Of a stretch of DNA of 64,000 nt, positions 1 to 42,535 are shown piece after piece (position 1 is the first letter of the stretch; each line of letters opens with the position of its first letter). Source of the stretch: Anaerolineales bacterium (GTDB lineage: Bacteria > Chloroflexota > Anaerolineae > Anaerolineales > Villigracilaceae). The position numbers and the translations under genes are program-made. The notes beneath the pieces were generated by a model. The model made no database searches, was not told the DNA's origin, and saw only the letters and a list, made by a program, of their open reading frames with translations. The stretch spans positions 1 to 64,000 of the forward strand of contig JANWWK010000056.1 of the NCBI GenBank assembly GCA_025056175.1. Direction: 5' to 3'.

Positions 1-98
1 CCCTGGGAGAGGGCCGGGGTGAGGGCGCACCCCCTCTCCCCCTGGGAGAGGGCCGGGGTGAGGGCGCACCCCCTCTCCCCCTGGGAGAGGGGAGGGGG
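1..98 (+). repeat. GC-rich 39-bp tandem repeat (about 2.5 units) inside glycerate kinase ORF
   Basis: Units begin at 1, 40 and 79 (CCCTGGGAGAGGGCCGGGG...), an exact 39-bp period, i.e. 13 codons, with no stop in the gene's frame. Each unit can fold because CCCCTCTCCCC faces GGGAGAGGG. The third unit is truncated and diverged (GGGAGAGGGGAGGGGGG). The repeat is probably a mobile or expanding palindromic element; its left limit is outside the window. Confidence 0.85.
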
Positions 99-1223
99 GT
101 GAGGGAACACCTCCACATCCAACCCGGTGGCCATCCCATCCCGGACCAGAACAGCCTGCTGGCCGGACAAAAAGCCCGTGCGTTCGTTTCTGGCCTGACC
201 GAATGCGACCTGCTCATCTGCCTGATTTCCGGCGGTGGTTCAGCTCTGATGAGCGCCCCCCGTCAGGGAATTTCTCTTGATGAACTGCAACAACTCACCC
301 GTTCTCTGCTGGCTTGCGGCGCACGCATTGACGAAATCAACATCCTGCGCCGCCACCTGGATGAGCTCAAAGGGGGCGGACTGGCACGTCTCGCTGCTCC
401 GGCGCGCGTTGTCAGCCTTATCCTCTCTGATGTTGTCGGCAACTCGCTCGAAACAATTGCCTCTGGCCCCACCGCTCCCGACCCTTCTACACGCGCTGAC
501 GCCCTGATGGTTCTGCAAAAATATGGCCTGACCAAAAGCATTTCCCCTGCCATTTTACAAACGCTCCAGAACGCGCCTGAAACCCCAAAACCCGGCGAAC
601 CGCTTTTTGCGCGGGTACAAAACGTGATTGCGGGCAGCAACCGCCTGGCCGCCGAAGCCGCGCTCGAACAAGCCATCTGCGAAGGCTTCCACGCCCATTT
701 CCTGGGTGATGACTGGCAAGGCGAAGCGCGCGAAATTGCCAGACGCCTGTGCGCTTTCCTGCATTTCATCCCTTTTGCACGTCAAAGCCGGGGTGAGGGC
801 GCACCCCCTCTCCCCCTCGGAGAAGGGACAGGGGTGAGAGCAAATTTCTGCCTGATCGCCGGCGGTGAAACCACCGTCACCCTGCGTGGCAACGGACGTG
901 GCGGGCGCAACCAGGAACTGGCGCTGGCCGCCGTCCGCGAATTGAGCCAATTCTCCGGCAGTTTACTCATCACCCTTGCTACTGATGGCGAAGACGGCCC
1001 AACCGATGCTGCCGGCGCCGTTGTCAGCCCGGAGACGTTTGCGCGCGGCCTGGAACTGGGTCTCGACCCCGACCTATTCCTGGAAAACAACGACTCTTAC
1101 ACTTATTTCTCTGCACTGGACGACTTGATAAAAATCGGCCCAACAGGGACAAACGTCAATGATTTGACTTTTTTGTTTTTCGCATCAAAGGATAGGCCCG
1201 GAGCGTCCTGTAACATAGCATGA
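3..1223 (+). CDS. Glycerate 2-kinase (DUF4147/MOFRL family), 5' end outside window
   Basis: Phosphorylates D-glycerate to 2-phosphoglycerate in the cytoplasm, in serine or glyoxylate-type carbon metabolism. The motif GGHPIPDQNSLLAGQKA, the glycine loop ISGGGSAL, IAGGETTVTLRG with GRGGRNQELAL, and the C-terminal GPTGTNVNDL are hallmarks of the family, which is usually about 430-450 aa; roughly the first 100 residues lie left of the window. The track's GTG start at 99 is unlikely, because the frame stays open to base 3 and conserved sequence should precede it. Unusually, two stretches of the protein are written by GC-rich repeats: a 13-residue unit (LGEGRGEGAPPLP) in tandem before the GGHP motif, and one more copy just before NFCLIAGGETT. 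Both fall where the family has variable loops. The C-terminus (FLFFASKDRPGASCNIA) runs past the usual end. Family assignment is confident; activity with the inserts is untested. Confidence 0.88.
   Translation: MGEGRGEGAPPLPLGEGRGEGAPPLPLGEGRGVREHLHIQPGGHPIPDQNSLLAGQKARAFVSGLTECDLLICLISGGGSALMSAPRQGISLDELQQLTRSLLACGARIDEINILRRHLDELKGGGLARLAAPARVVSLILSDVVGNSLETIASGPTAPDPSTRADALMVLQKYGLTKSISPAILQTLQNAPETPKPGEPLFARVQNVIAGSNRLAAEAALEQAICEGFHAHFLGDDWQGEAREIARRLCAFLHFIPFARQSRGEGAPPLPLGEGTGVRANFCLIAGGETTVTLRGNGRGGRNQELALAAVRELSQFSGSLLITLATDGEDGPTDAAGAVVSPETFARGLELGLDPDLFLENNDSYTYFSALDDLIKIGPTGTNVNDLTFLFFASKDRPGASCNIA
786..842 (+). repeat. In-frame copy of the GC-rich palindromic element within glycerate kinase
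   Basis: This stretch repeats GGGGTGAGGGCGCACCCC plus CTCTCCCCCTCGGAGA and encodes RGEGAPPLPLGEGTGVRA, the same peptide as the units at 1-98. The element sits between the ARRLCAF helix and the conserved NFCLIAGGETT strand and keeps the reading frame. Confidence 0.8.
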
Positions 1224-39585: not shown

Positions 39586-40461
39586 ATGACCGCCCAACTG
39601 ATTGACGGCAAAGCAATTGCCCAGCAAGTGCGCGAGCAAGTGGCCGCCGAAGTTGCCCGACGCACTGCGGCAGGCAAATCCAGGCCCACCCTTGCCACCG
39701 TCCTGGTCGGCGACCGGGTGGATTCGGCCACCTACGTTCGCGCGAAGAGAAAAGCCTGCGAGGAGTTGGGGATGGGGTCGGTGCATCACCATCTGCCAGC
39801 GGATGTTTCGCAGGAGGAACTGGAAAAACTCATCAAGAGCCTGAACCGCAGCAAGAAGGTCAACGGTATCCTGGTGCAGTTACCGCTCCCAGCCCACCTG
39901 GACGAGGAACGGATTTTGAGCCTCATCAGCATCGAAAAAGATGTGGATGGCTTCTCACCGCTCAACATAGGCCGTCTGGCCCAAAAGGGACGCGAGCCGC
40001 TCTTTGTGCCTTGCACGCCCTTTGGCTGCATCTACCTGCTCGAACAGTCTGGCGTCAAAATCGAGGGCGCCAATGCGGTTGTTCTGGGCCGCTCGAACAT
40101 CGTCGGCATGCCCGCCGCCCTGCTCCTGATTGGCAAGAACGCCACTGTGACGGTCTGCCACTCGCGCACGCGCGATTTGCCCGGCGTGGTGAGGCAAGCC
40201 GACATCCTGATTGCCGCCATCGGCAAAGCCGAATTCGTGCGCGGGGAGTGGATTAAACCCGGCGCGGCAGTGATTGACGTGGGCATCAACTCCAAACCGG
40301 ATGAGACCAAAAAGAGCGGCTACCGGCTGGTAGGCGATGTCAACTTCGACGAAGCGAAGGAAGTGGCCGGTTGGATTACCCCCGTCCCCGGCGGCGTGGG
40401 GCCAATGACAATTGCCATGCTGATGAAAAACACCCTGCGCGCAGCGGAGATTCAGCAGTGA
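39586..40461 (+). CDS. folD: Bifunctional methylene-THF dehydrogenase / methenyl-THF cyclohydrolase
   Basis: Interconverts 5,10-methylene-, 5,10-methenyl- and 10-formyl-tetrahydrofolate. VDSATYVRAKRKACEELGMG holds the catalytic YxxxK motif, GILVQLPLPAHLDEERIL and KDVDGFSPLNIGRL the folate-binding blocks, VVLGRSNIVGMPAALLLI the nucleotide loop, and WITPVPGGVGPMTIAMLMKNT the C-terminal signature. 291 aa from the ATG at 39586 (MTAQLIDGKA); the track start 61 codons upstream is not supported. Its last codons (Gln-Gln-stop) run into a 7-bp tandem array that begins at 40456, so the array supplies the stop codon. Confidence 0.93.
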   Translation: MTAQLIDGKAIAQQVREQVAAEVARRTAAGKSRPTLATVLVGDRVDSATYVRAKRKACEELGMGSVHHHLPADVSQEELEKLIKSLNRSKKVNGILVQLPLPAHLDEERILSLISIEKDVDGFSPLNIGRLAQKGREPLFVPCTPFGCIYLLEQSGVKIEGANAVVLGRSNIVGMPAALLLIGKNATVTVCHSRTRDLPGVVRQADILIAAIGKAEFVRGEWIKPGAAVIDVGINSKPDETKKSGYRLVGDVNFDEAKEVAGWITPVPGGVGPMTIAMLMKNTLRAAEIQQ

Positions 40462-40623
40462 GCAGTAATCAGTAATCAGTAATCAGTGAACAGTGAACAG
40501 TGAGGAGTGAGGAGTCACTGTATGCTAATGACTGATAACTGATAACTGACAACTGATAACTGATAACTGATAACTGATAACTGATTACTGATTACTGATG
40601 ACTGACAACTGATTACTGATAAC
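40456..40623. repeat. Array of 24 degenerate 7-bp tandem repeats between convergent genes
   Basis: Units run in unbroken phase for 168 bases: left units CAGTGAG, CAGTAAT (three times) and CAGTGAA, then GAGTGAG, then right units TGATAAC, TGACAAC, TGATTAC. The right half is roughly the reverse complement of the left (CAGTTAT against CAGTAAT), so the array could fold back. It contains the stop codons of folD (TGA at 40459-40461) and of the S9 peptidase (TAA on the minus strand at 40613-40615). Confidence 0.9.
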
Positions 40624-42535
40624 TAACTTCCACCGGTTCAATCTCATCCGCCGGAGAGAAGCCGAAAATTTTCGCGTAAAAATAGAACTCCGCCTCGAAG
40701 GCGCGTCGGATGTTTTCGGCTTTGCGGAAGCCGTGCTGTTCACCCTCAAACAGGAGATAGGCGGTTGGCACGCCGCGCGCTTTGGCCGCCCGAAACATCG
40801 CTTCAGATTGGTTGGGCGGTACCACCGGGTCAGAGTCGCCCTGTAACAAGATGATGGGCGTGGAAAGACGGTCGGCATGGTGAATAGGGGAACGCGCGAG
40901 ATACAGGTCTCTGCGCTCCGGGTAGGGGCCAACCAGGCTGTCGAGATAGCGGCTCTCAAATTTATGCGTATCTCTGGCGAGGGCTTCCAGGTCACTGACG
41001 CCGTAATGACTGGCGCCAGCAGCAAAGACATCCTTGAAAACCAGCGCCGCCAGCGTAGTGAACCCGCCCGCGCTGCCGCCGGAAATCGCCATGCGCTTGC
41101 CGTCCACCAGCCCCTGCGCGGCCAGCCAGCGCGCGCCGTTACAGCAATCGTCCACATCCACAATGCCCCAGTTGCCGTTCAGGCGTTCGCGGTAAGCGCG
41201 CCCATAGCCGGTTGAGCCGCCATAATTGACATCCAGCACGGCAAAACCGCGGCTGGTCCAGTATTGAATGCGATAATTCAGGACGGCGTTGGTGGCAGCA
41301 GTTGGCCCGCCGTGACTGATGACGCGCAGAGGCGGCAGTTCGCCTTCGGGCGCGCGAAAATCGGGGTTGGTGGGTGGATAGAACAAAGCGTGCGCCGTCT
41401 GACCGTTTTCAGTAGGAAATTCCACCGGGCGAGGCGTGGAAAAGTAGCCGCGCGGAATCTCCGGCGCAAAGGAGAGTTTCAACGCCTCCAGCGCGCCGCT
41501 GCGCGGATGAAAGCGCCAAACGCCAAACGGCTGTTCGGGCGAACCGGCCAGGAAAACCACCGCTCCCTCTCCCACACAGACATCCGAAAAGGCAGTGAAA
41601 GGCAGGTCGAACGGCATGAGCGCTTTGCGGTCGGCCTCCAGGCGCGCCAGCGTCCATAGGCCGTTGCGGGTGAAGGCGCACGCCAGCTCGCGCGCGCCAA
41701 GAAAAGCATACGTCCGCATTCCAAAGACCCACTGGGGCATACCGAACTCAGCCTCGGCGGGATAGAGCGCTTCAGCCTCGTCCCCGTTCAGGCGGTAGAG
41801 ATTCCACCAACCGGTTCGGTCGCTGACGAAGTGCAGCACGCCTTCGGGAGACCATTCCGGCTGAAAGATGGATTCGGCCTTGCCCCCTGCCACCGGTTTC
41901 GACTGCCCCAGCGCGCCGTCTTCCCCTATCCGGGCCACCCACAGCGTGGTGCCATCCCAGGGCATGTTGGGATGATTCCAGGTCAGATAACACAATTGCG
42001 TTCCATCGGGGCTGAGACGCGGGTTGGAGAAAAAGTCGAAGCCGGAAACCAACACTTCGCCGCTGCTCCCCCCTGAGAGCGGAACGGCAACCAGCGTATT
42101 GACCGGTTCCCCACCGCCGGTATGGTCTTCACAGACGCAAATCAGGCGATTGCGGGCGCGGTCGAGCGCGAAATCAGCGTAGCGATAGCCTTCGGCGGGG
42201 GTCAGGGCTTCGGGCGCGCCGCCTGGCGTCAGCCGGTAGAGCCGCTGGTCTTTGAAATTGACGAAGAAAATCACGCCATCGAACACCGCATAGGCCCCAC
42301 CGCCATATTCATGGACTCGCGTGCGGACGTTGAACTCCGGCGGCAGGCATTCCACCGGTTCCGCACCCGGCACAGCCTTGACCAGCGCATTGCGCCCGCC
42401 TTCGAGCGGACGGCTTTCCAGCCAGTACACGTCGTTTCCATCGAGGCTCGCCTGCATCAGTCCGATGGTTTTGGCGGTCATCACTTCGGTGGTGATGGGA
42501 GATTTCCAACTTCCGTAAGGAGCAATTTGGGGCAT
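40613..42535 (-). CDS. S9 family peptidase (prolyl oligopeptidase / acylaminoacyl-peptidase type)
   Basis: A serine peptidase of 640 aa with an N-terminal propeller (FDFFSNPRLSPDGTQLCYLTWNHPNMPWDGTTLWVAR, EPEWSPEG-type blades) and a C-terminal alpha/beta-hydrolase. The triad is visible: Ser in MAISGGSAGGFTTLAAL, Asp in LLQGDSDPVVPPNQ, His in FEGEQHGFRK. VISHGGPTAATNAVLNYRIQYWTSRGFAVLDVNYGGSTGYG is the typical oxyanion region. No signal peptide, so probably cytoplasmic. I start at 42535 (MPQIAPYGSWK), preceded by CGGAGGAAAC. Its last residues (SYQ) and the stop codon are written by the 7-bp array. Confidence 0.9.
   Translation of the reverse strand: MPQIAPYGSWKSPITTEVMTAKTIGLMQASLDGNDVYWLESRPLEGGRNALVKAVPGAEPVECLPPEFNVRTRVHEYGGGAYAVFDGVIFFVNFKDQRLYRLTPGGAPEALTPAEGYRYADFALDRARNRLICVCEDHTGGGEPVNTLVAVPLSGGSSGEVLVSGFDFFSNPRLSPDGTQLCYLTWNHPNMPWDGTTLWVARIGEDGALGQSKPVAGGKAESIFQPEWSPEGVLHFVSDRTGWWNLYRLNGDEAEALYPAEAEFGMPQWVFGMRTYAFLGARELACAFTRNGLWTLARLEADRKALMPFDLPFTAFSDVCVGEGAVVFLAGSPEQPFGVWRFHPRSGALEALKLSFAPEIPRGYFSTPRPVEFPTENGQTAHALFYPPTNPDFRAPEGELPPLRVISHGGPTAATNAVLNYRIQYWTSRGFAVLDVNYGGSTGYGRAYRERLNGNWGIVDVDDCCNGARWLAAQGLVDGKRMAISGGSAGGFTTLAALVFKDVFAAGASHYGVSDLEALARDTHKFESRYLDSLVGPYPERRDLYLARSPIHHADRLSTPIILLQGDSDPVVPPNQSEAMFRAAKARGVPTAYLLFEGEQHGFRKAENIRRAFEAEFYFYAKIFGFSPADEIEPVEVSYQ

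Follow-up and report, generated by a model that had tools for sequence, protein, structure and literature searches.

The palindromic GC-rich repeat that interrupts the glycerate 2-kinase gene at the start of the window, by which the whole analysed stretch of 64,000 nucleotides is meant, is, judged by its sequence, BoxC, known also as PIT or as triplex motif TM type B. It is very probable that BoxC has entered loops and linkers of many enzymes, that the insertions leaving genes readable were kept, and that the resulting 39-bp arrays change by slippage or recombination. Sequence comparison directly provides the identity of the repeat, its recurrence in many genes, its absence from homologues and the low-confidence regions predicted at the inserts. 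In the proposed course of events, many enzymes of an Anaerolineae lineage would receive elements of the PIT/TM type B kind in their surface loops and linkers, selection would retain only those inserts across which the host gene can still be read, and the enzymes would gain peptides of the PLPxGEGRGEG type. Once two direct copies are present, 39-bp arrays could lengthen or shorten by slippage or unequal recombination, changes that would be harmless in frame. We infer the translation of the inserts, the selection filter and the slippage, and the filter, being drawn from in-frame survivors, is deduced rather than measured.

The 3' part of the glycerate 2-kinase gene occupies a single open frame on the plus strand (3-1223), which matches the DUF4147 (3e-61) and MOFRL (8e-39) domains as well as the T. 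maritima glycerate kinase 2b8n (4e-73). Both domains and the conserved motifs are present, as in MOFRL-type glycerate 2-kinases, and the nearest glycerate kinase relatives of the protein belong to Anaerolineae (Chloroflexota). Position 1 of the window is base 1 of contig C23 of the source genome (G000; 3.57 Mb in 95 contigs), and the protein is without the enzyme's first ~100 residues. The missing N-terminal half was located on contig C64 (1-506, minus strand), with 73% identity to the homologue of genome G003 over 97 residues; there the sequence continues into another four 39-bp units that keep the phase (RGEGVPPLPLGEG), after which this contig ends as well. Both halves end in the array, so that a frame continuing across the gap between C64 and C23 is presumed rather than proven. 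Since the window lies at a contig end, the first array was truncated by the assembler, and with the units on C64 it has at least six full units. LutB/LutC-like genes were observed directly upstream of the glycerate kinase (L014, 521-2609).

The 39-bp unit CCCTCTCCCCCTGGGAGAGGGCCGGGGTGAGGGCGCACC was found by TRF in 2.3 copies at 1-91 with 100% matches, and a further copy at 787-838 shows 92% identity to a 52-nt reference. The pattern CCCTCTCCCNNNGGGAGAGGG, with up to three mismatches, matched the window four times, against 0.01 matches expected. The first insertion is an in-frame tandem array of type B units at 1-105, cut at the contig end and followed by at least four more units at C64:1-180, with palindromic cores (CCCTCTCCCCCTGGGAGAGGG) found by pattern match at 32-52 and, in the second unit, at 71-91. 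The unit is oriented by a third arm, or triplex arm, GGGGTGAGGG, at 55-64, of which other copies lie at 16-25, 96-105 and 790-799. The second insertion, also in frame, spans 787-840 and combines a partial arm with one full unit; it occupies the loop that precedes NFCLIAGGETT. The conserved motifs GGHPIPD (126-146) and GGETT (861-875) stand shortly 3' of the first and second insertions, respectively, and all of these features are on the plus strand. TRF, the pattern search and the domain matches thus confirmed the preliminary description, which had placed a 39-bp element at two sites within one open frame of glycerate kinase, and the peptide LGEGRGEGAPPLP and the positions of the inserts before GGHPIPD and NFCLIAGGETT are as it gave them; the tandem array that it set at 1-98 is real but incomplete, being truncated by the end of C23.

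Both inserts are true loop insertions that keep the frame, as had been proposed, since alignment with 26 homologues revealed the repeat at neither site in any of them and pLDDT is low at both sites. The closest homologue, that of G003, whose identity is 73% across the part of the window that aligns and 78% by the genome search, forms a short loop at each site; relative to it, the second site shows a net gain of 20 residues. All invariant alignment columns covered by the window are retained. The AlphaFold model has a mean pLDDT of 82.7, with values mostly above 85 outside the insert regions and below 50 at residues 6-33, 262-269 and 273-276, and it compares with 2b8n at a TM of 0.72; the model suggests that the insert regions are probably disordered. 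The unit can form a hairpin with a 9-bp stem and a 3-nt loop. Hairpin strength was rejected as evidence, as it is no stronger than in shuffles with the same dinucleotides (z -0.3 to -1.1).

Comparison with E. coli BoxC revealed 32 identical bases of 34, and 4,431 of 5,426 complete E. coli genomes contain a match to the unit. The unit has the composition of BoxC/PIT/TM type B, with CCCTCTCCC-N3-GGGAGAGGG followed by the CCG loop and the GGGTGAGGG arm. Earlier work on BoxC used the names PIT element and triplex motif TM_ECO, the latter with the loop CCG in type B and TTA in type A, and intrastrand triplex formation by the E. coli sequence has been demonstrated in vitro (PMC4666352). The core, the CCG loop and the GGGGTGAGGG third arm are shared with E. 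coli type B (Holder et al. 2015, PMC4666352), and copies with the TTA loop of type A are also found in the source genome. In E. coli K-12, BoxC copies were reported to be always intergenic and without a mobility gene nearby (PMC4666352), whereas here type B occurs in frame in many genes, forms 39-bp tandem arrays and brackets a DUF559 nuclease, both in MetH of the source genome and in other hosts of its relatives. The many in-frame type B sites depart from the intergenic location reported for E. coli, a location that lies outside the sequence definition, and the assignment to BoxC stands.

The preliminary description had likened the element to the RPE of Rickettsia (Ogata 2000), and the likeness in behaviour holds, as both are palindromic repeats tolerated in frame in conserved protein genes; the identity does not. 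RPEs, described from Rickettsia, are palindromes of 105-150 bp (reviewed in PMC2229807 and PMC10969869), and the 39-bp unit was excluded from them by its length and by its BoxC match, a separation made on the RPE description and not on RPE sequences. The BoxC family consists of much shorter elements and has a far broader phylogenetic range, with a unit of 34-39 bp across phyla and, here, tandem growth and a link to a nuclease gene.

A search of the genome for the unit, which the preliminary description had recommended, revealed that many other genes carry the repeat. By pattern searches and selected sequence stretches, about 110 palindromic BoxC cores were counted, spread over the source genome, against none in the reversed control. 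In-frame BoxC is spanned by the Pfam domains Ald_Xan_dh_C, FGE-sulfatase, apiosidase, GH13, GH31 and MutS_II, in a xanthine dehydrogenase-type subunit, an FGE-sulfatase-type protein, an apiosidase-type hydrolase, GH13 and GH31 glycosidases and MutS, and more in-frame inserts occur in an integrase, a glycyl-radical activase and MetH. These inserts, whose detection was conditional on an open frame, are read in several frames and in both orientations, giving peptides such as PLPxGEG, LSxRERxGVR, PSPxGRG and LSQGERE.

Tandem type B arrays of the source genome lie mostly in long open frames, and type A copies are found mainly in a composite of ~127 bp that appears to lie between genes. Stops occur in three of the six frames of type A and in one of the six of type B, a difference that fits the selection filter. 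The composite, with two BoxC-like cores 80 bp apart, was noted on contigs C12, C26, C35, C47, C49, C65 and C95, several times at a contig end, and looks intergenic and MITE-like. A period divisible by three had been offered as the reason why the repeat can expand without breaking genes. Type B is indeed open in five of six frames, but most random GC-rich 33-mers are equally open (at 74% GC, 77% of them in five or six frames), so that composition and selection suffice. The period of three and the open frames as a special adaptation are further weakened by BoxC copies of relatives spaced 56 bp (G026:C64) and 167 bp (G042:C117) apart, neither a multiple of three.

The linker of MetH in the source genome contains a complete DUF559 domain (Pfam, 9e-33) between BoxC units, all in the host frame. 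Among the 151 genomes of the order, this linker is without BoxC in many (for example G139, G124, G018 and G132), contains BoxC alone in G095, G087, G111 and G035, and contains BoxC together with DUF559 in nine; three genera (g5, g9 and g31) each hold genomes with and without the cassette. A similar pattern was found in ValS of genus g22, where DUF559 with BoxC is present in G031, G114, G151 and G158 and absent in G044 and G106, whose loop holds unrelated simple repeats instead. No second ValS of comparable score was found among the matches listed for the carriers, which are MAGs of 80-97% completeness, and this makes it probable that the functional copy is the interrupted one. Unrelated in-frame simple repeats (TDYTDYTDF, NYQLPTT and ACCGACG units) were also observed in the MetH linker (L278, L279, L214) and the ValS loop (L342, L343) of other genomes, and the loops of MetH and ValS that take up BoxC look like general sinks for repeats.

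Further evidence links BoxC to the nuclease itself. In 12 of 12 cassettes examined, hosted by MetH, ValS, an N6-methylase and a PIG-L deacetylase, CCCTCACCC was found near the start and GGGTGAGGG near the end (at most one mismatch; shuffles give 0.5 and 0.3). Across 51 loci found by DUF559 profile search, BoxC cores reach 2.03 per kb within 250 bp of DUF559, compared with 0.036 per kb beyond 500 bp, a 56-fold difference; these loci were partly picked for long open frames, and the share of embedded copies among them is therefore no estimate. BoxC-flanked embedded DUF559 domains from six host genes (MetH, ValS, N6-methylase, a PIG-L-like deacetylase, a PyrF-like protein and an APH-like kinase) form one clade apart from free-standing copies, with support of 97/95 in a tree of 16 rows and 93/82 in one of 17 rows, which was based on few columns, after 20 more loci were added; the host names at L183, L210 and L338 are tentative, having been read by eye from translations. 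The nuclease domain in these cassettes is intact, with the residues E, W, RRQ, D, E.D, H and D..R kept in 17 of 17 embedded copies. Two other DUF559 settings were noted: in UvrA of family f12 (L204-L209), a separate DUF559 clade is embedded in frame without BoxC cores, and in DUF1156/N6-methylase type proteins (L194, L197, L202, L203), DUF559 of other lineages lies amid BoxC-like or other repeat peptides.

These observations raise the possibility, which adds to the insertion-and-retention explanation and does not exclude it, that the complete element is BoxC-DUF559-BoxC and that inverted pairs of BoxC represent its non-autonomous form, with DUF559 cutting BoxC or making the break by which the cassette is copied into BoxC-bearing loops. 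This reading is somewhat less likely than not; the process would resemble homing but involve no intron or intein, and it would be tolerated because the cassette is free of stops in the host frame. The BoxC termini of every cassette examined, the concentration of cores near DUF559, the single clade with retained motif columns and the varying presence of cassettes within genera all favour it, as does the presence of DUF559 in 32 of 35 BoxC-positive genomes against 44 of 116 others (Fisher p=1e-8, ignoring phylogeny and genome size). However, E. coli holds BoxC, yet a DUF559 search of the E. coli control genome gave no match; the source genome has one DUF559 against about 110 BoxC cores; and the loci were selected in part for long open frames. 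DUF559 is accordingly a plausible but unproven mover, and the leading candidate. A little more doubtful still is the wider proposal of a mobile element with BoxC as its terminal repeat and with an autonomous DUF559-carrying form, which would home in frame into loops of housekeeping enzymes such as MetH and ValS, free of introns and inteins, and leave the protein working with a nuclease domain in its interior.

Vsr-like or EDxHD homing endonucleases offer the closest comparison of this kind, as PD-(D/E)xK-type nucleases that reside in inteins and introns of conserved genes and are present or absent among relatives. In the MetH and ValS cassettes, by contrast, the nuclease is read in the host frame and is enclosed by BoxC ends, and no intein or intron features were noticed; the cassette ends read as BoxC peptides, and Pfam gives no intein domain in MetH of the source genome. 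Open-licence papers yielded no report on the BoxC-DUF559 cassette, on DUF559 with palindromes, on such nuclease insertions or on in-frame repeats of Chloroflexi.

That BoxC owes its movement to a RAYT-type (Y1, IS200-like) transposase, as REP elements do, is improbable. BoxC is a short palindrome like REP, GTAG/CGTC REP elements also occur within ORFs, some of them in DNA repair and tRNA synthetase genes (PMC3733652), and one Y1_Tnp domain protein is encoded in the source genome (C76:4653). This domain, however, is placed in a frame of 611 residues, Y1 is weakly associated with BoxC across the 151 genomes (odds ratio 3, p=0.02), no further link to RAYT was seen, and the BoxC unit has no GTAG/CGTC tag at the palindrome end, the tag that defines the REP superfamilies (PMC3733652).

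It is very unlikely that the peptides are adaptive parts of the enzymes, serving as new linkers or binding segments. The same type of peptide recurs and the linkers of MetH and ValS are reused repeatedly, but the hosts are unrelated, the inserts are read in differing frames and both orientations, and in other genomes the loops concerned in MetH and ValS hold simple repeats of unrelated kinds. An artefact of assembling a metagenome-derived genome can be considered just as improbable: although the first glycerate kinase array sits at a contig end and other contigs (C24, C58, C64 and C75) end in the repeat, the second site is in the interior of a contig, as are most of the other in-frame inserts (MutS, GH31, GH13, MetH), and BoxC recurs at the same MetH site in independent genomes.

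Rickettsia and REP elements had already provided examples of in-frame palindromes (PMC2229807, PMC10969869, PMC3733652); new here are the recognition of the repeat within coding genes as BoxC, its in-frame tandem arrays and its cassette with DUF559. BoxC, familiar for decades, is present in several hundred genomes of bacteria, among them the majority of the complete E. coli genomes, and has no known mover or function; a lineage in which it enters housekeeping genes and flanks an intact nuclease belonging to one clade makes the question of its mover testable at the bench. Repeats can thus enlarge conserved enzymes in frame well beyond Rickettsia, and odd multi-domain MetH or ValS proteins in annotation pipelines may be insertions. 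Besides BoxC, the strongest tandem repeat of the window is an array of 7-bp units (AGCAGTG and ACTGATA types) at 40454-40624.
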